This document shows positions 1-28,197 of a stretch of 64,000 bases of DNA, piece by piece. The stretch lies in the NCBI RefSeq assembly GCF_003574965.1, contig NZ_CP032317.1, positions 2,294,001 to 2,358,000 of the forward strand. The letters run 5' to 3'. The position numbers were made by a program, and so were the translations under genes. Below the pieces are notes generated by a model, which worked only from the letters and a program-made list of their open reading frames with translations, did no database searches and was not told the DNA's origin. Position 1 is the first letter of the stretch. Each line of letters starts with the position of its first letter. The stretch comes from Hymenobacter oligotrophus (GTDB taxonomy: Bacteria > Bacteroidota > Bacteroidia > Cytophagales > Hymenobacteraceae).

Positions 1-126
1 GCCTTCTTGTATCTGCACCCAGTGCGCCAGCAAGCACGCCGCCTCGATGGTACGGCCCTCGTGCATTGCTTCTTGCACGAGGGCCGCCGCCTGCAGCCCG
101 GCCATGGCAGAGTTAGAGGCGCTCAT
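1..126 (-). CDS. Hypothetical protein, 5' part only (runs off the window)
   Basis: An ATG on the minus strand at 124-126 opens a frame that stays open for 42 codons to the window edge. The peptide begins MSASNSAMAG and continues with an Ala- and Leu-rich, probably helical stretch. No signal peptide or known motif is visible. Codon composition resembles the neighbouring genes. I do not recognise the family, and the missing C-terminal part prevents a better call. The long gene-poor stretch upstream of it is compatible with a promoter, but I see no convincing box. Confidence 0.4.
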   Translation of the reverse strand, partial: MSASNSAMAGLQAAALVQEAMHEGRTIEAACLLAHWVQIQEG

Positions 127-407
127 CTTGTGGTTTGGTTATGGAAAAGGGCGGTTGGGTCTCAAATGTGCAACATTGCCCAGCCAACGGCAAGGAAAAA
201 GTTGCTGCGCTTGTGACGCCTCTAAACGCCTGTTTTGCCTCATGGCCGTGTGCGCTAATTCGCTCCTAAAGCGTTTGATAGCAGCTTTTATGCCCGCGCA
301 CCGACATTATTTTTGGCCTTTTGTGACATAGCGTGCGCCCTTTATTTCTCCTTTGCCCGTTTCGCCAGCCGAAATAGGCCCACAACAACCCAACCGCCAG
401 AACGCGC

Positions 408-440
408 AAAGACCCGGAGCACAGGGCACGCCGGGTCTTT
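408..440. terminator. Hairpin, possible bidirectional terminator
   Basis: A perfect 10-bp stem (AAAGACCCGG at 408-417 pairing with 431-440) encloses a 13-nt loop. The arms begin with AAA and end with TTT, so it could terminate either strand. There is no long T run, and the gene it would serve is not obvious. Confidence 0.5.
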
Positions 441-625
441 ATAATAGCAAAAAGGGAATTTGGGCTTTATACTGTCGAGCTTGCCAAAAGGTTTGGCGAG
501 CCGGGGATTTTCGTGATAATATTTTTTAACGCTATGACTGCGACTGTTGGGCTACCAGCCTCAGAGTAGGATTGGAATCCAGCTCCGAAGTTTACAACAC
601 CCATCAGTTTGTGCACAACCGCAGA

Positions 626-681
626 AAAAACTCGCTCTGTATCACACAAAGCGGGTTATTAGTGGAGCTGCCTGCTCGAAA
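626..681 (-). repeat. Decayed second copy of the ssrA 3' end and terminator
   Basis: This segment resembles 2652-2713, which holds the tmRNA terminator and the last bases of the tmRNA. The terminator stem region matches at 22 of 26 positions and all four differences are transitions. It is followed by 11 identical bases (AGTGGAGCTGC) and then a partial match to the T-arm. A displaced gene 3' end is what an integrase-type island leaves at its far end. No integrase is visible between the copies. The similarity is seen directly; the origin is inference. Confidence 0.55.
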
Positions 682-1084
682 TGATCTGGTACGCGGCCTA
701 TTTAAGGCCAAATCACCGGCTGCGCGTGTATCGCATTGTGCCTCAGAATGTAGGCCCAACTAAAGGCATATACCGCCGTCGCCAACTCTTTCTACTAGCA
801 CATCGGAAACGGGGCGGCGTAGCGCCTCAGCGCGGCGTGTTTGTTCAATTTTCAAGTACCCTGTGGCTTAACAGGTAGTGTCAATTGGTGTGCCAATACC
901 TCTGGCACCGCCCCCGCTACCGATGCTATTGAATGGGCTCTTTGTCGTCAATTTAAAATAAGGGGAAGGCTTTCGCGCTGGCCAAACTGGGCGGGACGTT
1001 AGGAATGGGCACAGTCTACATAATGATACTGTAGCATCGCCGTCCAATGGTACTTCAGCCGCGCCGCGTCACAAGAGCGGAGCT

Positions 1085-1092
1085 TATCTTTG
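1085..1092 (+). promoter_or_regulatory. Bacteroidota -7 box (TATCTTTG)
   Basis: An exact match to TAnnTTTG, 37 nt before the acyltransferase ATG at 1130. No clear -33 TTG box is visible at the usual distance. Confidence 0.5.
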
Positions 1093-1129
1093 CACGCCTC
1101 CTTAGTTTCCTATTCGCTTCCAACTGTAA

Positions 1130-2296
1130 ATGCAAGTTCAAGAGCCTGTCTTATCCGAAGCAATAGCCACGCCAACCGCGCGTCCCGCGAAGCCCTACTT
1201 CGGGGCGCTTACGGGCGTGCGGGCCGTGGCGGCGTACATGGTCTTTGTGCACCATTTCAATCCGTTCAAGGGGGCAACGTCAGCGGCTGGGCAGTTTTTT
1301 GAACGCCTTTGCGAAGAGCTGCACATCGGCGTGACGCTGTTCTTTGTGCTATCGGGGTTGTTGATCTGCGTGCGGTACATGGACCACGTCGAACTCAGCG
1401 GCCGCTGGGCGCTGCGCTACCTGCGCAACCGAGTGGCCCGCATCTACCCGTTGTACCTTCTGCTAACGCTGCTGACCTTCGCTGCCTTTGCCTTGCGCCC
1501 CGAGTTGGATAACCTCGAGCAGTGGAAGTGGTACGCTGCTCGGGATAAGCTGGCGGTCATCATATCGAACATCACCTTTCTGCGGGGCTTCTTTGACGAC
1601 CTAAAATTCTCCGGCATTGCCCAGGGCTGGTCGTTGACGGTGGAAGAGTGCTTCTACTTTACCGCGCCTTTTTTGCTGCTGGGGCTAACGCGCAGCCGCG
1701 GGCTCATCTGGCTTTACCCTCCGGTATTGGTTGGCCTGGGTCTGTTGCTGGTGCAAGTATTGGCTCCGCGCCAACTGCTCGGCTTGTTTGACTCGAACGA
1801 ATTTATGTTCATCTACACTTTCTTCGGTCGCAGCACCGAGTTTGTGGTGGGCATGGCGCTGGGCTTGCTAGTGAAGCGCCGCACGCGGCCGACGCAGCCC
1901 GGGTGGTTATGGACCGGCACCGGGCTGGTTTGGATATTTGGGTGCCTCCTCGTATTGATCAGCCTGCATTCGGAAACGCTAGGCGGCGGATTCGGCAGCC
2001 CTTGGCGCATTGTGGTCAATAACGCCGTGCTGCCGCTGGGCATTGCGTCCCTGTTTTATGGTCTGATTTACGAGCGGTCAGCAATGCAAGCGGTCCTTTC
2101 CACGCCGCTATTCGACACGCTGGGCAAAAGCTCGTACGCTTTCTACCTAGTGCACATGAGCGTTTTCAGCGTGGCCCTCGACATATGGATTTCCAATAAC
2201 GTGGGCTTAAAATTCGTGCTACTGAACCTGTTGGCTTATGGGCTGTACCGCGCGGTGGAAAAGCCCCTCCACCGAATTATTGCAGGCCGCGCTTGA
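1130..2296 (+). CDS. Acyltransferase 3 family membrane protein (OafA/YrhL-like)
   Basis: 388 residues. Members of this family move acyl groups (often acetyl) from the cytoplasmic side onto surface sugars or lipids. The N-terminal signature is clear: LTGVRAVAAYMVFVHHF at about residues 28-43, with the family Arg (R31) and the His pair H41/H42. About ten hydrophobic segments follow, including LFFVLSGLLI near 70-80 and QGWSLTVEECFYF near 165-177, both typical of the family. The length is normal and the gene intact. It stands alone between the decayed ssrA copy and ssrA, so no polysaccharide locus indicates its substrate. If the flanking repeat is an att remnant, this gene would be the cargo of the old insertion. 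Confidence 0.88.
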   Translation: MQVQEPVLSEAIATPTARPAKPYFGALTGVRAVAAYMVFVHHFNPFKGATSAAGQFFERLCEELHIGVTLFFVLSGLLICVRYMDHVELSGRWALRYLRNRVARIYPLYLLLTLLTFAAFALRPELDNLEQWKWYAARDKLAVIISNITFLRGFFDDLKFSGIAQGWSLTVEECFYFTAPFLLLGLTRSRGLIWLYPPVLVGLGLLLVQVLAPRQLLGLFDSNEFMFIYTFFGRSTEFVVGMALGLLVKRRTRPTQPGWLWTGTGLVWIFGCLLVLISLHSETLGGGFGSPWRIVVNNAVLPLGIASLFYGLIYERSAMQAVLSTPLFDTLGKSSYAFYLVHMSVFSVALDIWISNNVGLKFVLLNLLAYGLYRAVEKPLHRIIAGRA

Positions 2297-2651
2297 TCAA
2301 ACTTTTGTCTTTTCCATCTGCCATGCTATAACACTACCGGCAGAAGTGGGGCTTTCGATTTATACATAGCACCTCCTCGTTAAATACGGTTGTTGGGGTG
2401 CTGTCTGCACACCCATTAACTAAGGCCGCGCCTAACCCTATCTAGTTTACTACCCGGTGGCGTTGATAGAGCAAATAATTGTCGCAATGCCGGGGGCGGC
2501 GTGGTAAAACTAGGCGGCGCAATCTTGGGTATAGAGGCAACTGTGTAGCGTACCGTTGAAAAAGCGCAGCTGGACGGCGGTGGCGATGAACTTAACTAGC
2601 TTGATGCTGCCCATGACACGGTGGGAATATTGGCAGTGATTTGCCAAAAAC
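2297..2651. other. Intergenic stretch, nothing identified
   Basis: About 355 bp between the acyltransferase stop and the tmRNA terminator. The short open frames on both strands have no recognisable product. No CCTAGG word and no promoter box is evident. Confidence 0.4.
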
Positions 2652-2686
2652 AAAAAAACCCGCTCTGCATTACGCAAAGCGGGTTT
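2652..2686 (-). terminator. Rho-independent terminator of ssrA
   Basis: On the minus strand the arms AAACCCGCT and AGCGGGTTT form a stem followed by a run of seven T, starting 3 nt after the mature tmRNA end. This is a strong intrinsic terminator directly downstream of ssrA. Confidence 0.85.
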
Positions 2687-2689
2687 CAG

Positions 2690-3058
2690 TGGAGCTGCAG
2701 GGAGTCGAACCCTGGTCCAGACAAGGAGAGCGTCGAGCTTTCTACGTGTGTATCCGAGCTTGCTTTGTTCGAAGTAACCTAGGCGCCCGTCAGGCCTTTG
2801 AGTTACCCTTATCTGCTTGAGATTCACCTAGGCGTCGCAGCGCCACCTAGGCTATCCTTATTCTTTCGACACCCCGTGCTCACCCGTGATAAGGCAGACG
2901 GATGCGGGATGATGGCTATTGCTTAGTACCTAGACTAGGCAGCCATGGCGTAGCTATACTCGCCAGTTGTTGTTCGGATGATTTGTTGGCGAGAGATTCA
3001 CCCAACTCTCGACACGCTTACTCGCGACCTGCACGAGCTGTCAATTCCGGTCAGCCCC
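2690..3058 (-). ncRNA. ssrA: tmRNA (SsrA)
   Basis: tmRNA rescues ribosomes stalled on broken mRNAs and tags the unfinished protein for proteolysis. The 5' end GGGGCTG (3058-3052) pairs with CAGCTCC (2697-2691), giving a 7-bp acceptor stem with one G-U pair. The T-arm GGGTTCGACTCCC is intact near 2700-2715. The discriminator A is followed by CTG, so CCA is not encoded and must be added. An internal reading frame encodes the tag GEYSYAMAA followed by TAG. The length of about 369 nt is normal for a one-piece tmRNA. Three CCTAGG words lie in its 3' half. Boundaries come from stem pairing and should be good to 1-2 nt. Confidence 0.93.
2935..2964 (-). other. ssrA: tmRNA tag reading frame (GEYSYAMAA, stop TAG)
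   Basis: The resume codon is GGC at 2964-2962 and the stop is TAG at 2937-2935. The encoded tag GEYSYAMAA ends in the hydrophobic AMAA expected of a ClpXP-type degradation signal. It closely resembles tags I recall from Cytophagales, which start GE and end SYAMAA. Confidence 0.85.
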
Positions 3059-3096
3059 AATTGTGTAAGAACGACCCGCCGTGGTAAGCGGGGCTG

Positions 3097-3104
3097 CGAA
3101 GGTA
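3097..3104 (-). promoter_or_regulatory. Possible ssrA -7 box (TACCTTCG)
   Basis: On the minus strand TACCTTCG lies about 39 nt upstream of the mature tmRNA 5' end. A start 6-7 nt downstream of it would leave a leader of roughly 30 nt for RNase P to remove. A -33 box is not clear. Confidence 0.45.
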
Positions 3105-3136
3105 CGCAAGCAGATGAATAACGGATGAAACAGTGC

Positions 3137-3196
3137 AAAAAGTTTCGGGGCGCCGGCCTTCCGCTGCTTGCAGAAGCCGGCGCCCCGAAACTTTTT
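3137..3196. terminator. Strong bidirectional terminator
   Basis: A perfect 24-bp stem (3137-3160 with 3173-3196) with a 12-nt loop; both ends are A5/T5 runs. It follows the 3' end of the minus-strand membrane protein gene at 3216 and isolates it from the ssrA promoter. Confidence 0.9.
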
Positions 3197-3215
3197 GTCT
3201 TAGGCCCTACAAGGC

Positions 3216-3743
3216 TCAGCTCATGGCCGGCGTGTTGCCAGGCGTACGCAACAACGAAGCCGGACGGGTAGACCAGAAATGGGCACTGTACGCCCGGAAG
3301 GCCAGGTACAAGGCCAGCGGCGTTTCGATGAGCAGCGCGAGTTTGCGCACCCAGTCGCTTTGCAGCAGCAGGTTCACGAGTTCGTTTTCGCTGAAGGCAG
3401 CGGCCAACGGCACCCGCGCTAAGAAAAACGCTGCCCACACGGCTACGTGGCACAGCAACAATACCCACAGCACGCCCCTAGGTACGGCGGCAGGTTTGCT
3501 GCGCAGCAACGCCAACACCAGCACCGTAAGCACTACCGATGGCACCATGAGAAAGAGCGTTGTGGAAGGCGAGTTGGCCATGTTCCAGGCTGCAAAATCG
3601 GTCAGGCTCAGGTATGAGCTCATTTCCGACCAACTGCGGTACTCTTGCCACTCGGTGGTAGCCGAAGCCACCAGGCAGTACAACGTCAGCAATACATAGG
3701 CTGCCAGAAGCCACCGCGATTGTGAAGTAGAAGCTGTTTCCAT
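3216..3743 (-). CDS. Four-helix membrane protein of unknown function
   Basis: 175 residues starting METASTSQSRW. Four hydrophobic stretches are visible: WLLAAYVLLTLYCLVAS near the N-terminus, LFLMVPSVVLTVLVLALL, VLWVLLLCHVAVWAAFFLA and, more weakly, LALLIETPLALYLAF. The frame is open further upstream, but those codons fall in AT-rich promoter-like DNA, so the ATG at 3743 is preferred. A strong terminator follows the stop. I do not recognise a named family, and no neighbour suggests a role. It is probably an inner-membrane protein expressed on its own. Confidence 0.65.
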   Translation of the reverse strand: METASTSQSRWLLAAYVLLTLYCLVASATTEWQEYRSWSEMSSYLSLTDFAAWNMANSPSTTLFLMVPSVVLTVLVLALLRSKPAAVPRGVLWVLLLCHVAVWAAFFLARVPLAAAFSENELVNLLLQSDWVRKLALLIETPLALYLAFRAYSAHFWSTRPASLLRTPGNTPAMS

Positions 3744-4120
3744 AGAAGATGTTTTGGGTATGTGGATGGTTGTGGGCGCAAGCAACCGTATAGGCAGCTT
3801 GCAAGAGCGTATCAATATAATTACATTATTTAACAAACACAAGTAATTATTATAATAATTATAAACTCGTCAATAAATACCACAGTGCTTTATTAAGGAT
3901 TTAGAGCCGTGCATGCTGGCCAGAGCCCAAATTGACGTGTGCTTGAGGAGCGTATTCCCTCGTTATATAATAGCTTGTTAATTAATATTTTACATATACG
4001 CATGTAGCAGCAATTCGCTTCAGATCAAAGGTTAGTGCTACTGCCTGGTTGGTTCCGCCAAGGCTTTCGCACCTAGGGCTGGCGCCGGCGAAAAGCCGCG
4101 GAAGCGCGCCGCCGAATGCG
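3744..4120. other. AT-rich divergent intergenic region
   Basis: About 380 bp between the minus-strand membrane protein and dnaX. The part from 3815 to 4010 is clearly AT-rich and probably holds the minus-strand promoter. I see no gene or RNA here. Confidence 0.45.
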
Positions 4121-4128
4121 TATCTTTG
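4121..4128 (+). promoter_or_regulatory. dnaX -7 box (TATCTTTG), nearly leaderless
   Basis: An exact TAnnTTTG match ends 11 nt before the ATG at 4140. Transcription would start only about 5 nt before the start codon. It also argues against the upstream in-frame ATG at 4116, which lies before the box. Confidence 0.55.
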
Positions 4129-4139
4129 TGGAACTGGCT

Positions 4140-6161
4140 ATGGAGAATTTCGTCGTTTCGGCTCGTAAGTACCGCCCCGCTACTTTTCGGAGTGTAGTTG
4201 GGCAGCAGCACGTGACCACCACGCTGCAAAACGCCATTGTTACCGGCCACTTGGCCCAGGCGTTTCTGTTTTGCGGTCCGCGCGGTGTGGGCAAAACCAC
4301 CTGTGCCCGCATTCTGGCCAAAACCATCAACTGCACCAGCCTCACGCCCGAGGCCGAAGCCTGCAACGAGTGCGACTCGTGTCGGGCCTTCAACCAAAGC
4401 GCCTCGTTTAATGTGCACGAGCTCGACGCGGCCTCGAACAACTCCGTGGAGGACATCCGCTCCCTGGTGGAGCAGGTACGCTACGTCCCGCAGCAAGGCC
4501 GTTACAAGGTGTACATCATCGACGAGGTGCACATGCTCTCGAATGCGGCTTTCAATGCCTTCCTTAAAACGCTGGAAGAGCCGCCGGGCTACGCCATTTT
4601 TATTCTGGCCACCACCGAGCGCCACAAAATCATTCCCACGATTCTGTCGCGCTGCCAGATCTTCGACTTTAACCGCATCAAGCTCGACGACATCGTTGGG
4701 CACCTAGGCTACATTGCCGGCAAAGAGCAAGTAACTGCCGAAGACGACGCGCTGCACCTGATTGCCCAAAAAGCCGACGGCGGCCTGCGCGACGCGCTCA
4801 GCATTTTCGACCAGATGGTGACCTTCTCGGGCCATCAGCTGAGCTACCGCGCGGTGGTGCAAAACCTGCACGTGCTCGATTACGAGTACTATTTCCGCCT
4901 TACCGAAGCCTGCCTAACCCAAAACCTTTCGGCCACGCTGCTGCTGCTCGAGGAGGTGGTGCAGAACGGCTTCGACCTGCACCAGTTTGTGATTGGTGCC
5001 GCCGAGCACCTGCGCGGCCTGCTGGTGTGCAAAGACCCGCAAACCGTCCAGCTCCTGGAAGTATCGGAAGGCTTGCGCCAGCGCTACGCCGACCAAGCCC
5101 GCCAGGCCCCGCTTAGCTTCTTGGTAACGGGACTGAACCTGCTCAGCCAGTGCGACCGGGACTTTAAAGCTGCCAAAAACCAGCGCCTGCACGTGGAGTT
5201 GGCCCTGATGAAGCTGGCTTACCTGCGCAATGCCGTGCAACTCACCCACGATTTGGTGGCCGGTGCGCAGCTAGCTTCGTCGGGCAACGGCGAGGCTAAA
5301 AAAAAAACTGATGGTGTAGCCTCTGCTGCGCCTGCCGTGCCGGCCCCCATCGGCAACCCCACTGGGTACGCGCCCAACGGCCACGCGTCGGCCGTGCGCG
5401 AAACGGCGGCTCCCTCCTACCCCAAAGCCAACGGCGCGCCCGTGGCAGCGCCGGCCGCTCCGGAGCCCATTGTGCCGGTGCAAAGCGGCGTTGAGGAGTT
5501 GCACCCCACGCCCAGCATCGAAACGGAGCTGGAGGAAGTGCCCTCCACGCGCCGGCAGCTGGTGGATACCCTGCCGCACGTAGAAACCGGCCGCCCTAGC
5601 GTGGCCGGCCACGAGCCGGGCAGCCGGGCTTTGGTGGCCGAGCCCGTAGCGGCCGCTGCACCCGGCAGTGCCCGCCCCGCGCCCAAGCCCATTGCCATTC
5701 CGAAGCTAAACCTGCAGGCGGTGAAAGCCCAGGCCACGCAGCGCCAGGAAGCCGCGGCGGCCGTGCTGGAGGAAGAAGCCGCCGCACCGGTCACGGGCAC
5801 CGTCAACCAAGCTATGCTGCAGCAGGTGTGGCGCGAGTTGGCCGAAGCCCGCAAGCAAATCAGCATGAGCGAGTTTATGACGTTGAACCGGCCCATTCAG
5901 GCCGATGAACAGCACGTGATTCGCCTGCAGCTCGAAAACCCGGTGCAGCTTGACCAGTTCAACGCGTTCAAGCCCGAGTTTTTGTCGGCCTTGCGCCAGC
6001 GCACCGGCTACCGGTCGCTCACCATCCACACCGAAGTAACGGAGCAGGTGCAAACCGGCAAGCGCCTCTACACCTCGTCGGATAAGTTTGAGTACCTGGC
6101 CGAAAAGTTTCCGGTGCTGCACGAGATGAAGCACCGCCTAGGTCTGGACACCGACTTTTAA
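4140..6161 (+). CDS. dnaX: DNA polymerase III subunit gamma/tau
   Basis: 673 residues, the clamp-loader ATPase of the replicative polymerase. Residues 1-370 are the AAA+ part: Walker A GPRGVGKT at 46-53, four zinc cysteines C65, C75, C78 and C81, Walker B IIDEVH at 126-131, sensor LATTERHK, and the arginine-finger motif LSRCQIFDF. An Ala/Pro-rich linker spans about 385-540. The tail (about 545-673) would be the tau-specific part that binds the polymerase. At codons 387-389 lies a run of ten A; a slip in either direction reaches a stop within four codons, giving a gamma-length protein of about 390 residues. I chose the ATG at 4140 (MENFVVSARKYRP) because it matches the usual N-terminus and follows the promoter box. 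Confidence 0.96.
   Translation: MENFVVSARKYRPATFRSVVGQQHVTTTLQNAIVTGHLAQAFLFCGPRGVGKTTCARILAKTINCTSLTPEAEACNECDSCRAFNQSASFNVHELDAASNNSVEDIRSLVEQVRYVPQQGRYKVYIIDEVHMLSNAAFNAFLKTLEEPPGYAIFILATTERHKIIPTILSRCQIFDFNRIKLDDIVGHLGYIAGKEQVTAEDDALHLIAQKADGGLRDALSIFDQMVTFSGHQLSYRAVVQNLHVLDYEYYFRLTEACLTQNLSATLLLLEEVVQNGFDLHQFVIGAAEHLRGLLVCKDPQTVQLLEVSEGLRQRYADQARQAPLSFLVTGLNLLSQCDRDFKAAKNQRLHVELALMKLAYLRNAVQLTHDLVAGAQLASSGNGEAKKKTDGVASAAPAVPAPIGNPTGYAPNGHASAVRETAAPSYPKANGAPVAAPAAPEPIVPVQSGVEELHPTPSIETELEEVPSTRRQLVDTLPHVETGRPSVAGHEPGSRALVAEPVAAAAPGSARPAPKPIAIPKLNLQAVKAQATQRQEAAAAVLEEEAAAPVTGTVNQAMLQQVWRELAEARKQISMSEFMTLNRPIQADEQHVIRLQLENPVQLDQFNAFKPEFLSALRQRTGYRSLTIHTEVTEQVQTGKRLYTSSDKFEYLAEKFPVLHEMKHRLGLDTDF
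5298..5311 (+). promoter_or_regulatory. dnaX slippage site (A10) with -1 frame stop
   Basis: Ten consecutive A (5298-5307) encode Lys387-Lys389 in frame. One added A, or a -1 ribosome shift, makes AAC then TGA at 5309-5311. One lost A gives CTG ATG GTG TAG. Both alternatives end just after the AAA+ region, where E. coli and Thermus dnaX make gamma by programmed frameshifting or transcript slippage. The sequence is seen; the use of the site is inference. Confidence 0.65.
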
Positions 6162-6174
6162 CGGGGCAGCCGCC

Positions 6175-6250
6175 AACCCGTTCCCCTCCTTTTTGAAGGA
6201 GGGGACGCCGGGCCGCAGGCACGGCTGGGGTGGTTCTGTCGTTGCTGACG
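6175..6250 (+). repeat. R1 repeat, left arm of an inverted pair around the DUF559 gene
   Basis: 76 bp matching the reverse complement of 6719-6794 at 72 positions. It contains an internal hairpin (CCCCTCCTT ... AAGGAGGGG) and a GC-rich part, and ends inward with GGCTGGGGTGGTT followed by a 16-nt unique tail that is also conserved between the arms. It starts 14 bp after the dnaX stop and could also act as its terminator. Confidence 0.85.
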
Positions 6251-6267
6251 CCCGTGCCTTCTTTGCA

Positions 6268-6636
6268 TCATCCAGCTTGAAACTCCTGTCTGATGGCTTC
6301 AAGCACCCACTCTGGCTGCTCGAACACCAGCTTGTTTTAAAAGCGCAGCACCCGTATGCCCACGTGGCGTAGGTAAGCTGCGCGCGCCACATCGTGCGCT
6401 TCCCCGGCAACGTCGAAGTGCCCCTGCCCATCCAGTTCCACTGCCAGTCGCTCAGCTGGGCAGTAGAAATCCAAAATGTACGGCCCTACGCTGTGTTGCC
6501 GACGAAATTTGCGGTTGTCAAGCCTTCCGCCTTGCAGGGCCTTCCACAGCGCCGCTTCGGCAGGGGTGAGGTTTCCGCGGAGCTGTTTACGAGTCTGCTT
6601 TAGCTCTTGGCGGTTGTGGCGGAATGTGTTGGGCAT
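6268..6636 (-). pseudogene. DUF559 endonuclease-domain protein with an in-frame stop
   Basis: DUF559 proteins are small, Vsr-like predicted nucleases of the PD-(D/E)XK fold. The frame starts MPNTFRHNRQELKQTRK and carries LTPAEAALWKAL (about 24-35), KFRRQHSVGPYILDFYC (about 43-59) and the catalytic-looking LAVELDGQGH (about 64-73), then GIRVLRF at 93-99. TAA at 6339-6337 interrupts here, where relatives usually have an acidic residue followed by an aromatic or polar stretch. Reading continues in frame for 22 codons (NKLVFEQPEWVLEAIRQEFQ...) to TGA at 6268. One substitution (GAA to TAA) would explain it. The 99-residue product keeps the catalytic core and might still fold. R1 arms flank the gene. 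Confidence 0.75.
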
Positions 6637-6718
6637 GCCTAGGTGCTGATTTTATATTGCTACGCAACATCGATAATCCGCGGTGCCAGTAGTCTGCGCC
6701 GGTGCCCTAGGTGCTCAA

Positions 6719-6800
6719 CGTCAGCAACGACGGAACCACCCCAGCCGCGCCTGCGGCCCGGCGTCCCCTCCTTCAAAAAGGAGGGAAGCGGGTTGTTCTG
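6719..6800 (-). repeat. R1 repeat, right arm
   Basis: Inverted partner of 6175-6250 (95 % identical). Its outer end CAGAACAACC (reading 6800 to 6791) is shared with the R1 copy at 9831, so the M16 peptidase gene lies between two R1 units whose outer ends face it. Confidence 0.85.
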
Positions 6801-6810
6801 GCCGCATCGC

Positions 6811-6818
6811 TACCTTTG
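6811..6818 (+). promoter_or_regulatory. -7 box (TACCTTTG) of the M16 peptidase gene
   Basis: An exact TAnnTTTG match 38 nt before the GTG start at 6857, directly after the R1 repeat. A TTG at 6793-6795 is a possible -33 element but is rather close. Confidence 0.5.
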
Positions 6819-6856
6819 GTAGCTACCCATTACTTGTTTTTCACCTCATCTGCTCC

Positions 6857-9826
6857 GTGAAAAAACCAATCCTGCTCCTGCTGCCGGCCGCCGTGGCGCT
6901 TGGCCTGATGCAGTGCCAGCTCAGCAAAACGGCCGCTACCGCCACTAGCCCCCAGCCCCCGGCGGCAGCCGAGGCACCTAGGGCCAAAGAATACAAGTAC
7001 ACCACCGTGGAGGGCGACCCGCTGAAAACGCGCATCTACACCCTCGAGAACGGCCTGACGGTGTACCTCTCCGACTACGACGATGCGCCGCGCATCCAAA
7101 CGTACGTAGCGGTGCGGGCCGGCTCCAAAAACGACCCGGCCGATGCTACCGGCCTTGCGCACTACCTCGAGCACATGGTGTTTAAAGGTACCTCGCGCCT
7201 AGGTGCCCAGAACTTTGAGGCCGAACGAGCCGAGCTGCAGAAGATAGAAGGCCTGTACGAGAAGTACCGCGGCACCCGCGACGCGGCGCAGCGCAAAGCG
7301 TTGTACCACCAGATCGACTCCATCTCGAGCGTGGCGGCGAAGTACGCCGTGGCCAACGAGTACGACAAGCTGATGGGCGCCATTGGCGCGAAAGGCTCGA
7401 ACGCTTACACCTCGGTGGAGCAGACGGTGTACCAAGAGGATATTCCGTCGAACCAGATCGAGAAATGGGCCTCGGTGCAGGCCGAGCGGTTTGGCGAACT
7501 GGTGCCGCGCTTGTTCCACACCGAGCTGGAGGCTGTGTACGAGGAGAAAAACCGCGGCCTCGACAACGACTTCAACAAGGAGTTTGAGGCCATGAATGCT
7601 TCCCTTTTCAAGAAGCACCAATACGGCACCCAGACCACCATCGGCACGATTGAGCACCTGCAGAACCCGTCCATCACGGAGATTAAGCGGTATTTCAACA
7701 AGTACTACGTGCCCAACAACATGGCCGTGGCCATGAGCGGCGACCTGGACTTCGACCAGACCATCCGCATTGTTGACCAGTTCTTTGGCAAGCTGGAGCG
7801 CAAGCCCCTGCCCGACTTTGTGCCGGCCGGCGAGGAGCCCATTGCGGCGCCCATTGTAAAGGAGATAAAAGGCCCCAACGCCGAAAACGTGATGTTGGGC
7901 TTCCGCTTTCCGGGCACGGCTACCAAGGATGCGTTGGTGCTGCGCATGATCGACAAGATCCTGACGAACGGCCAGGCCGGCCTCATCGACCTGAACCTGA
8001 ACCAGAAGCAGGCTGTACTGGAAGCCGCTTCGTTTACCGACATCAACAACGACTACAGCACGCACGTGCTGTACGGCACGCCCCGCCAAGGCCAGAGCCT
8101 CGACCAAGTGCGCAACCTGCTGCTGGCCCAACTGGATAAGGTGAAGAAGGGCGACTTCCCGGAGTGGCTGATTCCGGCCATCATCAACAACGAGCAGTTG
8201 CAGCGCATCAAGAGCTACGAAAGCAACGAGGCACGCGCCGGCGCCTTTGTGGCGGCCTTTGTGGCCCGCGAAAACTGGAAAGACTACCTGCAGCAGTTCG
8301 AGGACTTCGGCAAGATTACCAAGGAGGATGTAATGCGCGTGGCCAACCAATACTACGGCCCCGGCTACGCCCTCGTGTACAAGCGCACCGGCAAAGACAC
8401 CAACACGCCCAAAGTAATTAAGCCGGCCATTACGCCCGTGCCCGTAAACCGCGACGCGGCTTCGGATTACTACAAGCAGGTAGTGGGCATGCCCTCGCCC
8501 GAGCTGCAGCCGGTGTTCGTCGATTACAAGAAGGACATTCAGCAAACGGAGCTGAAGCCCGGCCTGCCGCTGCACTACACCCAGAATAAGGAGAACGGCC
8601 TGTTCTCGCTGTACTACGTGCTCGACCTAGGCACCAACAACGACCCCAAGCTTGGCCTCGCGGCCGACTACCTGCAGTACTTGGGCACGGGCAAGTACTC
8701 GGCCGCCCAACTGCAGCAGGAGTTTTACAAGCTCGGCTGCTCGTTTGGCGTGCAAAGCGGCCCCGACCGCGTGTTCGTGAGCCTTTCGGGCCTCGATAAG
8801 AACTTGGAGCCGGCCTTGCAGCTGTTCGAGCAGTTGCTTGCCAACCCCACCCCCGACGCCGACGCCCTGAAAAACATGGTGGCCGGTGTGCTGAAAAACC
8901 GCCAGGATGCCAAGCTGAACAAAGGCGTGATTCTGCAGCAGGCCATGGTGAACTACGCCAAGTACGGCCCCAACAACCCCTTCACGAACATTGTAAGCGA
9001 GAAGGAGCTGAAGGCGCTGAAGCCGCAGGATTTGATCGGCCGCATCAAGCAGCTGCCCACCTACCAGCACCGCGTGCTGTACTATGGCCCGCGCGGCACC
9101 CAGGAGCTGCAAAGCACGTTGGTAACCCAGCACAAGGTTCCGGCTAAGCTAATTCCCACTCCGCCTACCAAGGAGTTTGGCGAGCAGCCGCTGAAAGACC
9201 GCCGCGTGTACTGGACCGACTACAACATGGTACAGGCCGAAATTCTGTTCCTGAGCAAGCGCGACGCCTACGACCCCAAGCTGGTGCCCACCGTAAGCCT
9301 CTACAACGAGTACTTCGGCGGCAACATGGGCTCCATCGTGTTTCAGGAGCTGCGCGAATCGAAGGCCCTGGCGTACTCGGCCACTTCGCGCTACGCCAAC
9401 GCCGACAAGCAGGGTCGCTCCAACTACCAGCTCAGCTACATTGGCACGCAAGCCGATAAGCTGCCCGAGGCCATGGCCGGCATGCAAACCCTGCTGAACG
9501 ACATGCCCATGGCCGAGGCCAACCTGAACATTGCCCGCCAGAGCATCCGCAACAGCATTGCCACGGAGCGCATCACCAAGTCGGATATTCTGTTCAGCTA
9601 CGAGCGGGCCCGGCGCCTAGGTCTTGACTACGACTTGCGCCGCGACATCTACGAGCAGACCCAAAACATGAGCCTCGCCGACCTCAAGAAGTTTCAGGAA
9701 GCCAAGGTGAAAGACCAGCCGCAAACCATCCTGGTTATCGGCTCGAAGGACCGTCTGAACTTTAAGGAACTAGCCAAATACGGCGAGGTGAAACAGCTCA
9801 CGCTAAAGGAAATTTTCGGGTACTAA
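6857..9826 (+). CDS. M16 family metallopeptidase, two-domain lipoprotein
   Basis: 989 residues from GTG 6857 (MKKPILLLLPAAVALGLMQC). The lipobox-like Cys20 suggests a lipoprotein facing the periplasm. The inverted zinc motif is HYLEH at 102-106, and the distal Glu lies in LEAVYEEKNRG about 75 residues later. A second, inactive-type M16 half follows after about residue 540. This is the usual two-half layout of periplasmic M16 peptidases, which degrade peptides inside a closed chamber. The longer frame upstream starts inside the R1 repeat and before the promoter box, so GTG with a clean signal peptide is preferred. It is a single-gene unit bounded on both sides by R1 repeats. Confidence 0.93.
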   Translation: MKKPILLLLPAAVALGLMQCQLSKTAATATSPQPPAAAEAPRAKEYKYTTVEGDPLKTRIYTLENGLTVYLSDYDDAPRIQTYVAVRAGSKNDPADATGLAHYLEHMVFKGTSRLGAQNFEAERAELQKIEGLYEKYRGTRDAAQRKALYHQIDSISSVAAKYAVANEYDKLMGAIGAKGSNAYTSVEQTVYQEDIPSNQIEKWASVQAERFGELVPRLFHTELEAVYEEKNRGLDNDFNKEFEAMNASLFKKHQYGTQTTIGTIEHLQNPSITEIKRYFNKYYVPNNMAVAMSGDLDFDQTIRIVDQFFGKLERKPLPDFVPAGEEPIAAPIVKEIKGPNAENVMLGFRFPGTATKDALVLRMIDKILTNGQAGLIDLNLNQKQAVLEAASFTDINNDYSTHVLYGTPRQGQSLDQVRNLLLAQLDKVKKGDFPEWLIPAIINNEQLQRIKSYESNEARAGAFVAAFVARENWKDYLQQFEDFGKITKEDVMRVANQYYGPGYALVYKRTGKDTNTPKVIKPAITPVPVNRDAASDYYKQVVGMPSPELQPVFVDYKKDIQQTELKPGLPLHYTQNKENGLFSLYYVLDLGTNNDPKLGLAADYLQYLGTGKYSAAQLQQEFYKLGCSFGVQSGPDRVFVSLSGLDKNLEPALQLFEQLLANPTPDADALKNMVAGVLKNRQDAKLNKGVILQQAMVNYAKYGPNNPFTNIVSEKELKALKPQDLIGRIKQLPTYQHRVLYYGPRGTQELQSTLVTQHKVPAKLIPTPPTKEFGEQPLKDRRVYWTDYNMVQAEILFLSKRDAYDPKLVPTVSLYNEYFGGNMGSIVFQELRESKALAYSATSRYANADKQGRSNYQLSYIGTQADKLPEAMAGMQTLLNDMPMAEANLNIARQSIRNSIATERITKSDILFSYERARRLGLDYDLRRDIYEQTQNMSLADLKKFQEAKVKDQPQTILVIGSKDRLNFKELAKYGEVKQLTLKEIFGY

Positions 9827-9830
9827 ACGA

Positions 9831-9900
9831 CAGAACAACCAGCTCCTCTCCTCAGATGAGGAGGGGACGCCGCAACGCAGTTGCGGCTGGGGTGGTTGAC
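9831..9900 (+). repeat. R1 repeat, left member of a second pair
   Basis: Starts CAGAACAACC like the R1 arm at 6800, continues with a hairpin around CTCAGATGAG, then a GCAAC-GTTGC stem, and ends inward with GGCTGGGGTGGTT. It is clearly the same family as 6175-6250 but diverged in the hairpin loops. It starts 4 nt after the M16 stop. Confidence 0.75.
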
Positions 9901-9927
9901 CTCGTGGCAGATAGTAACCTCAACCCA

Positions 9928-10032
9928 AAAGGAACGTCATGTCGAGCCCCGTCGAGACATCTCGCCGAATAGTAATTACTGTCTAGCGTTAGCACGTGAG
10001 ATGTCTCGACAAGCTCGACATGACGTTCCTTT
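9928..10032. repeat. R2 palindrome nested inside the second R1 pair
   Basis: Two inverted arms (9928-9963 and 9998-10032) match perfectly over 20 and 12 bases and differ only in a 3-4 nt centre. Each arm begins AAAGGAACGTCATGTCGAGC when read inward. About 34 nt separate them. This is a different repeat family from R1, lodged between the two R1 arms where the first pair carries a DUF559 gene. Confidence 0.8.
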
Positions 10033-10076
10033 ATCAGACGAGTTGGTCGCCCTAGGTGGCGTCAGTCCAACGATTG

Positions 10077-10131
10077 TCAACCACCCCGCCCTACGGGCAC
10101 CCCTCCTCATCTGAGGAGGGGAGTTTCGTTC
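10077..10131 (-). repeat. R1 repeat, right member of the second pair
   Basis: Reverse-complement partner of 9846-9900: the CTCATCTGAG hairpin flanked by CCCCTC/GAGGGG, then GGCGGGGTGGTTGAC pointing inward. Divergence from the left arm is larger than in the DUF559 pair. Confidence 0.75.
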
Positions 10132-10148
10132 AGCTTCGCTTTTACCGC

Positions 10149-10184
10149 AAAGGGCCGGCACCACCTGGGTGCCGGCCCTTTTGC
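10149..10184 (+). terminator. Rho-independent terminator
   Basis: A 14-bp stem (10149-10162 with 10168-10181), loop ACCTG, followed by TTTT. It lies just past the R1/R2 block and would stop readthrough from the M16 gene before icd. Confidence 0.85.
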
Positions 10185-10403
10185 TTGTGCGGGGGCACCT
10201 AAGGCAGCTGTGGTTGCCTAACCAAGCTGGGGGCGCAACGGCGCATATACGACATTTTTTTCAAACACTTGTTTGGGCCCAATTAATGTCGGTGCTTTGC
10301 ATCCGCTTAGGGCCAAACGCGCTGGCTGAGCCGGCTCTTTGGCCCGTTTAGTTTCTTCACCAAACACCCTTAACCCCGGCGTCATCTACTGACAACGTAA
10401 CAT

Positions 10404-11669
10404 ATGGCAGACCAGAAGATTACCATCAAGAACGGCAAACTCAACGTTCCTGACCGCCCCATCATCCCGTTCATCGAAGGCGACGGTACCGGTCCGGACA
10501 TCTGGGCTGCCTCGGTGCGCGTATTCGACGCCGCCGTTGAAAAGGCATACGGCGGACAGCGCAAGATTGAGTGGAAAGAGGTGCTGGCCGGCGAAAAGTC
10601 GTTCAAGCAACTCAACAACTGGCTGCCCAACGAAACCCTCGATGCCTTCCGCGAATACCTCGTGGGCATCAAAGGCCCCCTCACCACGCCCGTAGGCGGT
10701 GGCATTCGCTCGCTGAACGTGGCCCTGCGCCAGGAGCTCGACCTGTACGCCTGCGTACGCCCGGTGCGCTGGTTCCAGGGCGTGCCTTCGCCCGTGAAGC
10801 ACCCGGAGCTGACCGACATGGTCATCTTCCGCGAAAACACCGAAGACATCTACGCCGGCATTGAGTACATGAACGGCACGCCGCAGGCCCAGAAAATGCT
10901 GGAATTCCTGCAAGACGAGATGGGCGTAAAGAAAATTCGCTTCCCCGAGTCGTCGTCGTTCGGCATCAAGCCCGTTTCGAAGGAGGGCACCGAGCGCCTC
11001 GTGCGCGCTGCCATCCAGTACGCACTGGACAACAAGCGCGAGTCGGTGACGATTGTCCACAAGGGCAACATCATGAAGTTCACCGAGGGAGCCTTCAAGA
11101 CCTGGGGCTACGAGCTGGCCGAACGCGAGTTTGGCGACCGGGTATTCACCTGGGCGCAGTACGATAAGCTGGCCGCCAAGCACGGCCAGGACGCGGCCAA
11201 CACCCACATGAAGAACGAGCTGGCCTCGGGCAAGATCCTCATCAAGGACAGCATCGCCGATGCCTTCCTGCAGCAGATCCTGCTCCGCCCCTCCGACTAC
11301 GACGTGGTGGCCACCCTGAACTTGAACGGCGACTACATCTCCGACGCCCTCGCCGCTATCGTCGGCGGCATCGGCATCGCGCCGGGCGCCAACATCAACT
11401 ACGTTACCGGCCACGCCATCTTCGAAGCTACCCACGGCACCGCGCCCAAGTACGCCGGCCTCGACAAGGTGAACCCCGGTTCGGTAATCCTGTCGGGTGC
11501 CCTGATGCTGGAGCACATGGGCTGGCAGGAAGCCGCCGACCTGATCTACAAAGGTCTGGAAGCCGCCATTGCCGACAAGCGCGTTACCTACGACTTCGAA
11601 CGCCTGATGGAGGGTGCTACCTTGCTGAAGTGCTCGGAGTTCGGCGAGGAAATCGTGAAGAACATGTAA
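10404..11669 (+). CDS. icd: NADP-dependent isocitrate dehydrogenase
   Basis: 421 residues; oxidises isocitrate to 2-oxoglutarate and CO2 in the citric acid cycle, as a cytoplasmic dimer. The homodimeric bacterial type is recognisable from [16 protein letters not shown] near the N-terminus, [20 protein letters not shown] around 93-112 (the substrate serine and arginines), [14 protein letters not shown] around 142-155, and the cofactor region [23 protein letters not shown] around 353-375. The ATG is the only sensible start ([13 protein letters not shown]). It is monocistronic, with terminators on both sides. There is no CCTAGG in the gene. Confidence 0.97.
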
Positions 11670-11694
11670 TTCCGCTGACCTAAGTCAGTAACCC

Positions 11695-11732
11695 AAAAAC
11701 CCCGCGTTGGCTTCGGCCGGCGCGGGGTTTTT
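11695..11732 (+). terminator. icd terminator
   Basis: A 12-bp stem AAAAACCCCGCG / CGCGGGGTTTTT with a 14-nt loop, 25 nt after the icd stop, ending in a T run. Confidence 0.9.
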
Positions 11733-11917
11733 GTTTTCGGTTTTGAAGATAATCGGCCTGATCCAGCCAAGGGCTACCGGGAGGCCAAACCCAGCACGCC
11801 GACTATACTCTCAGGCTGTAATCGGCAGCTCCTACCTAGGGCGTTCTGCAACGGGCAGCTGCCCAGTTCGCGCTTCGGGCGCAAGGCACTTTGGTTTGCC
11901 AGGCAAGCGGGTTGTGC

Positions 11918-12649
11918 TTACTGATCCTCGATTACATCGAAGGCCAGCTGCTCGGTGGGGGCGGCACTGGCTTCGGTGGAGCCACGCAGCACCAAGGAAT
12001 ACGTTTTGCCCGGCTCGAGCGCGGCGCTTTGCACAAACAACGGTGCCTGTGGGTAGGCGGCGCGCGTTACGTTGAGCCGGTACGTGCGGGCATCCACGGC
12101 CTGGTAGCCGGTTACGGCACCCCAGGCCACCTCGGTGTAAAACGCCGTGCTGGTTTGCCGATCTTCGATGCGCACGGGCGTAGACTGCGAAGCAATGTTG
12201 ACAACCCGAATGTGCGCTTTGCCGGCTACCGGGGCGGGCACGGCAGTTGCTTCTTCTACCACCAACGCGGTATGGTGCAAGCTACCAGCAGTGCGCGTAA
12301 ACAAGGAGTAGCGCTTGCTCTCGGCAATGGGCAAAGCGCTGAACTGCACCCACTGCGTACCGCCGCCCGATGCCGAGGGCAGCATAATCTGCACGAAATG
12401 CTCGCCGGCCGCTACCGGCTGGTAAGGCGTGGCTTTGCCCACGGCCGCTCCGGGCCCTACGGTTTTGCCGCCTACGTACAGCTGTATTTCGCCCGCAACG
12501 GGCTGGCTGGCAGTGAGGTTGTTGACGATGCGCACGTAACCTTGCGGAGCGGGTTTGGGCGCGGGCGCATCCGATTTGTCGGAGGAGCAGGATTGGCCGA
12601 GCAAGGCAGCGGCACCGAGGGTAGTCAGGTACAGTAAACGAGTGTTCAT
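11918..12649 (-). CDS. DUF4397-domain lipoprotein
   Basis: 243 residues from the ATG at 12649. The N-terminus MNTRLLYLTTLGAAALLGQSC ends at a lipobox-like Cys21, followed by charged SSDKSD as in Bacteroidota surface lipoproteins. The rest matches the DUF4397 style: GYVRIVNNLTASQPVAGEIQLYVGGK, later HIRVVNIASQSTPVRIEDRQ and a closing GKTYSLVLRGS, i.e. Ig-like beta repeats with R(V/I)VN motifs. Function is unknown; such proteins are usually surface-exposed. Upstream codons in the same frame lack a signal peptide, so the later ATG is preferred. Confidence 0.8.
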   Translation of the reverse strand: MNTRLLYLTTLGAAALLGQSCSSDKSDAPAPKPAPQGYVRIVNNLTASQPVAGEIQLYVGGKTVGPGAAVGKATPYQPVAAGEHFVQIMLPSASGGGTQWVQFSALPIAESKRYSLFTRTAGSLHHTALVVEEATAVPAPVAGKAHIRVVNIASQSTPVRIEDRQTSTAFYTEVAWGAVTGYQAVDARTYRLNVTRAAYPQAPLFVQSAALEPGKTYSLVLRGSTEASAAPTEQLAFDVIEDQ

Positions 12650-13046
12650 AGCAAGTAAAAGGATAGAAACATGCATGGCTGGTAGCCGGCGTAAGGTTGG
12701 CAAGCACCGGGCCACAACCTCGGCTATGCGTAACCCAACGGCCAATGCCAAGCAAAAGCACCTGATTATGAAGCAATAATAATTTATATGCTATATAAGA
12801 TAAATCTACCCCGTAGTCCAACCTCTTGCCCCCCTGGTACCTAGGCAACCTTGGCGCGGGGCGATTTACCTAGGGCACCCGGCGTCGGTGAAGCTAGCCG
12901 ACAAATACACCTGCTACTCATGCACCGCGCGGCGCCCAGCCGACCCCTGTACCGCGTTCTGCCGTAGAACTACGCAACCGCGCCCCCGCACATTGCGGCG
13001 GCCACCACTCGCGGCACCCTACTCCCACAACCTTTCACCCATCATT
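12650..13046. other. Divergent intergenic region
   Basis: About 400 bp between two divergent lipoprotein genes. An AT-rich core at about 12765-12810 is the likely promoter zone for one or both. The 240 nt before the plus-strand gene are open in its frame but give no coherent N-terminus. No RNA or other gene is seen. Confidence 0.45.
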
Positions 13047-13457
13047 ATGAAGAAGACCCTTTTCCTTGCGCTGGCCGCCGCTGCGTTCAGCTTTGCCTCG
13101 TGCACGCAAAACGAGAACTCGGCCGAGCAGCGCACCGTGCAAGACAACACCGACGGCACCGCCGAGGGCGCCCAGCCCGCGCCCGGAACCACCGCCGACC
13201 AATCGGGCGACGGACCGGCCAGCATCGAGGGCACCGACCAGACCACTACCAACAACGGCTCTTCTATTTACGGCGGGCCCACGTCGCGGGCATCTACCCC
13301 AGGCAGTGCCACCTCTACCACGGGCCGCACGGCTACTACTACCAGTGGCTCGGCTACCTCGGGCAGCACCGCCAGCGGTAGCGCAACCGGTACGGGCAGC
13401 GGCACAACATCGGGCACCACTACGGCGGGTACTGGCACGGCCACTACGGCTCAGTAA
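13047..13457 (+). CDS. Low-complexity Ser/Thr/Gly-rich lipoprotein
   Basis: 136 residues from MKKTLFLALAAAAFSFASC, a clean lipoprotein signal with Cys19 followed by TQNENSAEQ. The mature part is disordered: first an acidic segment (DNTDGTAEGAQPAPGTTADQ), then from about residue 75 a tail almost entirely of Ser, Thr, Gly and Ala. There is no domain. It may be a surface or envelope spacer or glycosylation substrate, but that is speculation. The frame is open upstream, yet only this Met gives a signal peptide. Confidence 0.65.
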   Translation: MKKTLFLALAAAAFSFASCTQNENSAEQRTVQDNTDGTAEGAQPAPGTTADQSGDGPASIEGTDQTTTNNGSSIYGGPTSRASTPGSATSTTGRTATTTSGSATSGSTASGSATGTGSGTTSGTTTAGTGTATTAQ

Positions 13458-13480
13458 CCAAGCGGCTACGGGCATTAGCC

Positions 13481-13549
13481 AAGCGCAACACCGCAACAGC
13501 CAAAGCGTCTTCCTAACCGAAGCGCCTTTGCTGTTGCAGTGTTGCGCTT
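13481..13549. terminator. Long hairpin between convergent genes
   Basis: A stem of about 27 bp (13481-13507 with 13523-13549) with one mismatch and one bulge. Its outer 10 bp (AAGCGCAACA/TGTTGCGCTT) are perfect. It abuts the stop codon of the minus-strand DinB-like gene and probably terminates both convergent genes. Confidence 0.7.
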
Positions 13550-14092
13550 CTAATGGATACTCTCATGCCCGGCGCTGGCTTGCAGCACCCGCGCCGTAAC
13601 GAGCAGTTGCCCTAGGTGGCGCATGGTGTGCTCGGCGGCGTGCACCAACAGGCCCAGTACCGTGGAGGGTAGTTGCGCCCGCCCCACGCCGCGCGTTTCT
13701 GTGAGGGTGGCGGGGTCGGTAGCCTGTAGCTGCTGCAGGGCCAGCTTTACTTGCTCATCGAACGCTTGCAGCAGCTCGGCGGTGCTGGCGGTGGCTTGCT
13801 CAGGGTTGCCTTCGGCCCTTAGGTAGGCAAGCTGGGCAGGGCTAAGCTGCTCGGCGCGGGCGTAGGTAAGCAGGCGGTCGAGCACGCCGGCGAGGTGCTG
13901 CAAATGAAAACCTACCGAGGCCACGCCGGCGGGCCGGTGCCACAGCAGCGCATCAGGAAAATTCAGTAACGCCGCTTCAAGCTCTTCGCGGGCTTGCAGC
14001 AGGGCGTGCGCCACGGGTTGAAGCAGCGCAGGCATATTGGGCAAAGGGCCGCGCAGCCAGACTTCGGGCGGGGTAGCAGCAGGAGTATTCAT
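13550..14092 (-). CDS. DinB-like (YfiT-superfamily) metal-binding protein
   Basis: 180 residues from MNTPAATPPEVWL. The four-helix bundle pattern of DinB/YfiT proteins is visible: VGFHLQHLAGVLDRLLTYA at about residues 60-78 gives the first histidines, and HAAEHTMRHLGQLLVTARVL near 150-170 gives HxxxH followed by GQ. The histidines would bind a divalent metal. Relatives are thiol transferases or stress-induced proteins; which one applies here cannot be told. The frame extends upstream without a coherent start. It faces away from the aminotransferase gene. Confidence 0.8.
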   Translation of the reverse strand: MNTPAATPPEVWLRGPLPNMPALLQPVAHALLQAREELEAALLNFPDALLWHRPAGVASVGFHLQHLAGVLDRLLTYARAEQLSPAQLAYLRAEGNPEQATASTAELLQAFDEQVKLALQQLQATDPATLTETRGVGRAQLPSTVLGLLVHAAEHTMRHLGQLLVTARVLQASAGHESIH

Positions 14093-14301
14093 GGGGCGTA
14101 ACCGGTAAGTGATGCGCTTGTTACCGCGCTTGCAGCACCAGAGTTGCACCTTAGCTGGTACCCCAAAAAAGCATTCAAACCGGTTGTTCCTTTTCTTGTG
14201 CGGCCAAACCAAGCCATGTAAAGGCAAACTTCGGAGGGGCATTCTGAAGCAAACATGAAGACATAGCTGCCGTTGGGCTTTCGGTGCGGGTGGTGGCGCT
14301 G

Positions 14302-14309
14302 TATTTTTG
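14302..14309 (+). promoter_or_regulatory. -7 box (TATTTTTG) directly before an ATG
   Basis: A TAnnTTTG match ending 5 nt before the ATG at 14315. Initiation 5-7 nt downstream of the box would make a leaderless transcript. It fixes the start codon. Confidence 0.5.
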
Positions 14310-14314
14310 TGGTT

Positions 14315-15514: not shown

Positions 15515-15575
15515 CCAGCCACCTAGGCGCACAAAGAATTGCGTGCTTATGCGCCCGAAGCCCATGCGTGCGTTG

Positions 15576-15583
15576 TAACTTCG
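15576..15583 (+). promoter_or_regulatory. -7-like box (TAACTTCG)
   Basis: A TAnnTT(T/C)G variant 25 nt before the ATG at 15609. The same variant lies 26 nt before the ATG at 17344. Confidence 0.4.
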
Positions 15584-15608
15584 GATGCTCCCCTACTTAC
15601 CGCTTTCC

Positions 15609-16121: not shown

Positions 16122-16143
16122 CCTTTTCGGTATTCGAAAAAAC

Positions 16144-16183
16144 AAAACGGGCGGCTCCCTGATCTAGGGAGCCGCCCGTTTTT
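16144..16183. terminator. Bidirectional terminator between convergent genes
   Basis: A perfect 17-bp stem (16144-16160 with 16166-16182), loop GATCT, A4 and T5 at the ends. It serves the secreted protein gene and the convergent dehydrogenase. Confidence 0.92.
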
Positions 16184-16202
16184 GCATAGGCCATCCGAGA
16201 GC

Positions 16203-17246: not shown

Positions 17247-17309
17247 TGCTTGGAATAAGAAGTTGATCGAGGTCTGTCAAAAGTCAGCCACAAAGGAAAG
17301 GGAAGACGG

Positions 17310-17317
17310 TAACTTCG
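17310..17317 (+). promoter_or_regulatory. -7-like box (TAACTTCG)
   Basis: TAnnTTCG 26 nt before the ATG of the DUF3817 gene, in the region divergent from the dehydrogenase. Confidence 0.4.
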
Positions 17318-17343
17318 CGGCTTGGGTTATTGTTGGCCTTGAT

Positions 17344-17646: not shown

Positions 17647-17663
17647 CCGATTGGTGGCGGATA

Positions 17664-28188: not shown

Positions 28189-28197
28189 ACAGTAAGC

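Follow-up and report, generated by a model that had tools for sequence, protein, structure and literature searches.

Inverted hairpin arms around DUF559 nuclease genes suggest a nuclease-driven mobile element

Short palindromes are dispersed through many genomes, and outside the RAYT-REP systems we know of few whose mover has been recognized. In Hymenobacter oligotrophus (genome, 4.19 Mb), a small nuclease gene of the DUF559 family lies between two inverted repeats, which raises the question of whether the enzyme spreads the repeats that enclose it. If it does, a domain of unknown function would gain a function, and many orphan repeats would gain an engine. We addressed this question with a 64,000-nt stretch of this genome, referred to below as the window, for which an earlier note had proposed such an engine in Bacteroidota.

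The window locus has dnaX and an M16-type peptidase gene on either side (names read from translations). Its two inverted arms are 77 nt long, 95% complementary, and spaced 468 nt apart, and the inverted match between the upstream and downstream flanks of the gene reaches a score of 134, whereas 440 random placements gave no more than 39. Each arm runs from a hairpin (CCCCTCC..GGAGGGG) through a short linker or a second hairpin to a tail, GGGGTGGTT. The features of the locus are as follows.

6174-6250, plus strand: left arm, comprising hairpin 1, hairpin 2, tail, and flank; 77 nt, 95% complementary to 6719-6795
6183-6204, plus strand: hairpin 1 of the left arm, CCCCTCCTT-TTTG-AAGGAGGGG, from the sequence
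6206-6225, plus strand: hairpin 2 of the left arm, a variable stem that replaces a 2- to 3-nt linker, from comparison with other copies
6227-6235, plus strand: tail of the left arm, GGGGTGGTT, the mirror of stem strand AAGGAGGGG with A changed to T, from the sequence
6268-6636, minus strand: DUF559 gene remnant with ATG at 6636, TAA at 6337-6339, and a domain that runs on to a stop at 6268, from the ORF and Pfam
6719-6795, minus strand: right arm, inverted, with hairpin 1 at 6765-6786, from complementarity to the left arm

The sole gene recognized between the arms encodes DUF559 on the minus strand (Pfam PF04480, E = 1e-24; 86.9 bits versus a Pfam cut-off of 20.6). No classical transposase was recognized between them, and the enclosed gene is not a Y1 HUH transposase; genes of that type (Y1_Tnp) sit elsewhere. 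Both the closely matching arms and the single DUF559 gene had been described from the sequence in the earlier note, and both descriptions held. Since an in-frame TAA at 6337-6339 splits the frame while the domain carries on past it in a whole-genome search, the window copy is probably dead; a sequencing error may be an alternative cause of the TAA. At the arms, an Rfam search of window positions 1-20000 found no family above its gathering score; two sub-threshold matches, both to one sRNA family, overlap a nuclease-less pair of arms described below. That search also placed a tmRNA gene at 2687-3058 on the minus strand (RF00023, E = 1e-47). The window further contains diverged duplications, 72 to 76% identical, at 52762-53260/55903-56404 and 57177-57424/57885-58126.

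The arms are dispersed across the genome. The pattern AGGAGGGGN{1,30}GGGGTGG has 51 exact units and its reversed control 0, and a looser short-linker pattern has 19 matches. A hand calculation predicts ~0.016 units at a distance of up to 500 bp from any one gene; the only two DUF559 genes found in the genome have two and three. The second gene is intact and has one arm on one side and two on the other. Each of the two genes is flanked by its own arm type, with a second hairpin at the window gene and a three-base linker at the other gene, and both types are dispersed.

We then asked how general this flanking is. Among 38 genomes (the H. oligotrophus genome and relatives), 29 carry DUF559, with 85 matches, of which the 70 strongest were used and the other 15, all with E values of 1e-14 or worse, were left out. 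Since a first contig scan with a wide alignment proved too variable, a narrower alignment was used, and 80 further loci were taken as the best 80 of at least 569 contig matches to a Bacteroidota query; these are best matches and not a random sample, and they come from Bacteroidota, other bacterial phyla, and one archaeal metagenome-assembled genome (MAG). The flank test scored how well the 400 nt upstream of a locus matched, in inverted orientation, the 400 nt downstream of it, and compared the best match with random placements (440 for the 70 loci and 800 for the 80 loci). The 99th percentile of the controls was reached by 59/70 and 42/80 loci, and their maximum was exceeded by 55/70 and 35/80 loci, respectively. 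Scores above 35 were obtained for 57/70 and 36/80 DUF559 loci versus 3/598 size-matched control ORFs (100 to 200 amino acids). Purine-rich hairpins occur on both sides of 97 of the 150 DUF559 loci, on one side of 42, and on neither side of 11, compared with 0, 51, and 563 of 614 control ORFs.

The contig loci above the control maximum include members of the Acidobacteria (L187), Verrucomicrobia (L156), Planctomycetes (L183), Cyanobacteria (L185), Chloroflexi (L177), and Desulfobacterota (L163). The archaeal locus (L161) scores 24, below the maximum, but hairpins lie on one or both of its sides. DUF559 genes without arms are few, since only the 11 of 150 loci lack a hairpin on both sides by this strict test, and among these, some (G022:68203 and L181) do carry arms whose stem contains a mismatch. 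The partnership between DUF559 and the arms is well supported, and we hold it with high confidence. The earlier note had anticipated that arms flank DUF559 genes above chance, and the counts of two-sided loci bear this out (97/150 versus 0/614); its restriction of the association to Bacteroidota, however, was too narrow.

Arm type also follows the lineage of the nuclease. Over the 94 of 150 loci that score at least 35 (87 after deduplication at 90%), the more alike the DUF559 proteins of two genomes are, the more similar their arms tend to be (Mantel r = 0.44, P = 0.0005; the maximum in 2,000 permutations was 0.145), and tail direction, inward or outward, likewise goes with lineage by eye. Arm copy number was surveyed in 296 Bacteroidota genomes with the pattern GGRGGGGN{1,4}GGGGWGG, with strong DUF559 matches defined by an E value below 1e-10. 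A strong DUF559 match is present in every one of the 17 genomes that hold 10 copies or more, relative to a baseline of 126/296 (Fisher P = 2.6e-7, uncorrected for kinship), and in 20 of the 21 that hold 8 or more, the exception being G274 (8 copies, no match). At a threshold of at least 5 copies, 28/37 genomes have a strong match and 9/37 have none (P = 2.4e-5, uncorrected for kinship). Five genomes contain about as many copies of the reversed control pattern as of the pattern itself (G215, 15/15; G090, 9/9; G328, 9/9; G265, 10/9; and G214, 10/8), partly because A/A variants match both readings. Pattern copy number tracks the presence of DUF559 (17/17 versus 126/296).

The tail of the arm mirrors its stem. 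Tails were anchored on G positions only, which placed 168 of 485 distinct candidate hairpins (flanks scanned on both strands) and left out 317. Opposite stem A, the 168 anchored arms have T at 267, A at 136, G at 15, and C at 16 of 434 positions. Collapsing these arms to 131 distinct types (63 distinct stems) gives T or A opposite stem A at 313/344 positions, and the maximum with shuffled tails of equal length was 53% (1,000 rounds). Real tails anchored in 181/504 cases, compared with an average of 79 and a maximum of 97 when tails were swapped between arms (200 swaps). Qualifying purine hairpins are ~38 times denser near DUF559 (475 in 88.9 kb versus 111 in 789 kb); the mirrored tail is not commoner among the near hairpins (129/475) than among those over 1 kb away (35/111), and the far hairpins that have it may be solo arms.

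The antiparallel purine-motif triplex code places G over G and T or A over A. We infer from this base pattern that the tail can fold into the groove of its own hairpin, as an intramolecular fold-back purine-motif DNA triplex; the mirror rule between stem and tail thus predicts a triplex-type DNA end. The G-tracts could instead be used in a G-quadruplex, but the rule at A positions, including A-runs that face T-runs (L163), fits a triplex better.

The earlier note had also placed a nuclease-less pair of the same repeat family near the window gene. This pair is real, and its features are as follows.

9826-10148, no strand: stretch without a counterpart in sister species G007, which has ~22 bp between the flanks, from cross-species comparison
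9836-9897, plus strand: left arm of the nuclease-less pair, from the inverted match
10079-10121, minus strand: right arm of the nuclease-less pair (tail, 10079-10087; hairpin, 10100-10121), from the sequence

Beyond the pair, at about 10152, lies another GC hairpin, which has a T-run and is retained in G007 even though the pair is missing there; the pair is not simply the terminator. An inverted repeat, CGTCATGTCGAGC..GCTCGACATGACG, lies within the spacer of the pair (window 9949-10029). Its ends begin with CGTC, and similar repeats occur in the spacers of other arm pairs; the CGTC ends recall the CGTC-tagged REPs described in PMC3733652.

Arms and gene turn over between species. By eye, the site 3' of dnaX holds arm-DUF559-arm in G000 and G004, a gene-less arm pair in G003, and neither arms nor gene in G001, G002, G005, G006, and G007. 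At another pair site, the outer ends are common to three species and the G005 spacer differs, which could reflect gene conversion between pairs. Inspection of 17 pairs by eye revealed no clear duplication of the target, a trace of movement that the earlier note had proposed to look for, nor was an insertion caught within one species. Candidate empty sites in other taxa did not hold up. The one in Sinorhizobium (H99) turned out to be a deletion within the gene and its 3' flank, and seven matched Azospirillum records all cover 99 to 100% of the tested stretch. In Escherichia coli, the stretch around ycjD, the DUF559 gene, is at least 80% present in 3,362/5,426 genomes, and in two genomes that were read and lack the stretch, an efflux operon occupies the position, a replacement that PMC12817139 also describes.

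DUF559 genes are found either between genes or within one continuous open frame (host ORFs checked by Pfam). Many DUF559 frames run on into a host protein, and among the matches listed, at least 34 sit in frames of at least 600 amino acids. In 10/10 ORFs scanned by Pfam, which were picked for their long frames, DUF559 shares its frame with LeuRS (2 genomes), MetH (2), HsdR (2), HsdM (1), or another methylase-type protein (3). Since the search favors open frames, we give no rate of in-frame insertion. In both LeuRS genomes, leuS was detected at a single locus. The arms adjoining the leuS DUF559 look worn, and the leuS genes of two Flavobacteriia-like genomes (L344 and L346) contain further arm-like in-frame stretches besides the DUF559 insert.

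For MetH and a helicase (UvrD-like by eye), relatives have uninterrupted homologues, and the insert sits in a variable linker or loop. These homologues have no arms at the site, and the arms and the gene therefore seem to arrive together. Given that the DUF559 proteins of the three MetH inserts are only 42 to 46% identical to each other, these insertions are probably independent. The G010 insert disrupts the reading frame of MetH, whose downstream half is left out of frame. Across bacteria and the archaeal MAG, the hsdR and hsdM inserts mainly form one lineage (mostly 53 to 79% identical), and the HsdM insert of G060 stands apart from it (42 to 53% identical). Members of this lineage (L161, L183, L154, L321, L323, L328, L336, L156, L170, and L184) occupy different positions in their host genes.

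The predicted fold of the enzyme resembles that of a homing nuclease. An AlphaFold model of the DUF559 protein of a Hymenobacter record (L147; mean pLDDT, 92.1) was matched by Foldseek to 3hrl at the top, then to the homing endonuclease I-Bth0305I (E = 7e-4); Vsr ranked 11th (E = 0.06). The Neisseria endonuclease-like protein 3hrl was also found by the DUF559 profile (hmmsearch, E = 5e-32), as was I-Bth0305I (3r3p, E = 4.4e-5). Judging from the predicted model, the closest solved fold besides DUF559 itself is that of I-Bth0305I. Five DUF559 proteins, the window copy not among them, did not reach the Vsr family cut-off: four had no match to TIGR00632, and the E. coli DUF559 protein scored 16.3 bits against TIGR00632 (cut-off, 97.85). 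E. coli YcjD has been described as a PD-(D/E)XK nuclease related to Vsr since 2005 (PMC1189080), and in 2026 a Caulobacter DUF559 protein was tied to DNA damage in cells that lack a methyltransferase (PMC12907096). A scan of five DUF559 proteins against the PADLOC defense families gave weak matches only (best E = 8e-5). On cyanobacterial plasmids, two DUF559 genes (L266 and L268) adjoin DUF1156 or PglX methylase genes of likely defense systems.

Taken together, these observations are explained best, and we think probably, by a mobile element that DUF559 drives, with the arms as its ends and the nuclease-less pairs as its dependants. At its core, a single gene for a PD-(D/E)XK nuclease would be enclosed by a pair of inverted arms. 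Each arm consists of a hairpin and a G-rich tail, and the tail would fold onto the stem to give a purine-motif triplex. DUF559 would recognize its own folded arms as ends, and a nick or break made by the enzyme would start copying of the arm-gene-arm unit; cutting of the arms and movement by the enzyme are thus the predicted steps. Gene-less arm pairs would be dependants moved in trans, or remnants. The unit would settle in frame within protein genes wherever a loop or linker tolerates insertion, a residence made possible by the many arms that read through without stop codons, and the outcome would be a mobile nuclease with in-frame insertions in leuS, metH, and restriction genes. More tentatively, DUF559 and its arms may constitute a new class of mobile element in bacteria and probably archaea, in which triplex-closed hairpin ends are read by a Vsr/homing-type nuclease, many orphan palindromes (perhaps including E. 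coli BoxC) are dependants, and insertion occurs in frame in essential genes. We are about as ready to doubt this wider proposal as to accept it.

DUF559 could instead be cargo, caught between arm repeats that some other enzyme moves. Most of the arm pairs that we read are gene-less, spacers differ between species at one site, and a DUF559 gene inherited along with its arms would also produce the matching of arm type to lineage. However, similar arms flank DUF559 across many phyla, with DUF559 as the gene in common, and the genomes rich in the arm pattern have DUF559. RAYT as the mover of these arms was rejected on the evidence of Y1_Tnp genes in the same genomes (30 loci fetched, 29 usable, with one incomplete): 20/29 are flanked by inverted repeats, but these are of nonarm sequence, and the Y1_Tnp flanks contain only 4 qualifying purine hairpins, 0 of which have a mirrored tail. 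We therefore regard the cargo explanation as unlikely. The same control makes the RAYT-REP comparison of the earlier note apt as a parallel with a different enzyme, because Y1_Tnp genes carry repeats of their own.

A rather poorer prospect is that the arms are preexisting dispersed targets and that DUF559 copies itself into pairs of them by cutting, as a homing nuclease would. The gene-less pair of G003 at the dnaX site, opposite the gene-bearing pairs of G000 and G004, would suit this explanation, as would the fold close to I-Bth0305I and the swap of spacer between arms. Uninterrupted MetH and UvrD-like homologues, however, have no arms, and the arms and the gene seem to come together. It is very improbable that the arms are ordinary bidirectional terminators or folded intergenic elements, with the nuclease adjacent by chance or regulated by them. 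Many copies do resemble GC hairpins and directly follow stop codons, but in-frame copies inside leuS, metH, and hsdR do not fit such a role, which also leaves the tail and the lineage matching unexplained and does not account for two-sided hairpins at 97/150 DUF559 loci versus 0/614 controls. We accordingly retain the DUF559-driven element as the preferred explanation.

In its logic, the element resembles both RAYT-REP systems and freestanding homing endonucleases; the enzyme and the repeat tag that define RAYT-REP are absent. As with RAYT (TnpA-REP) and its GTAG REPs and REPINs, a small enzyme gene lies between palindromes that are also dispersed as gene-less inverted pairs, so that DUF559 is, by analogy, an enzyme gene flanked by its own dispersed palindromes. 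RAYT, however, is an HUH tyrosine enzyme with GTAG-tagged repeats, whereas the DUF559 element combines a PD-(D/E)XK nuclease with a C/G-strand hairpin and a mirrored tail. GTAG occurs within 6 nt after the stem in only 2/168 arms and is thus no constant tag. GACG (CGTC on the other strand) follows the stem in 14/28 own-genome units that were read and in 1/168 arms, the latter an undercount where the stem takes in A. Repeats of a different family, GTAGCGCGGACTT.., which resemble RAYT-type REPs, lie at window positions 17664-17708, 28139-28190, and 33213-33265.

Short dispersed palindromes that also occur within genes are known from a 2013 survey (PMC3733652), which reports a CGTC class of REPs without a known transposase and intragenic REPs that include Rickettsia palindromic elements, some in frame in likely functional genes. 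Those REPs differ from the arms in sequence and have short CCA-type tails, and the sections of the survey consulted name neither DUF559 nor another nuclease. With I-Bth0305I, a Vsr-like homing endonuclease, DUF559 shares a catalytic fold and a sequence relation, and both the profile and Foldseek matches point to the fold of the homing family; in contrast, DUF559 here probably does not lie in an intron, and it has its own multicopy arms at many sites. Caulobacter VsrA is likewise a DUF559 protein connected to DNA damage in vivo, but it is interpreted as part of methyltransferase-linked mismatch repair, and the portions consulted do not mention flanking repeats (PMC12907096). Among the titles and abstract openings searched, with subscription papers and bioRxiv outside the scope, no DUF559 paper on flanking repeats was found.

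In E. coli, ycjD encodes DUF559 and is followed by arms, GGAGAGGG-TTA-GGGTGAGG, that have the stem-tail mirror pattern (L265, 4001-4580). We take these arms to resemble BoxC repeats. BoxC is a known repeat family of E. coli (PMC2267715).
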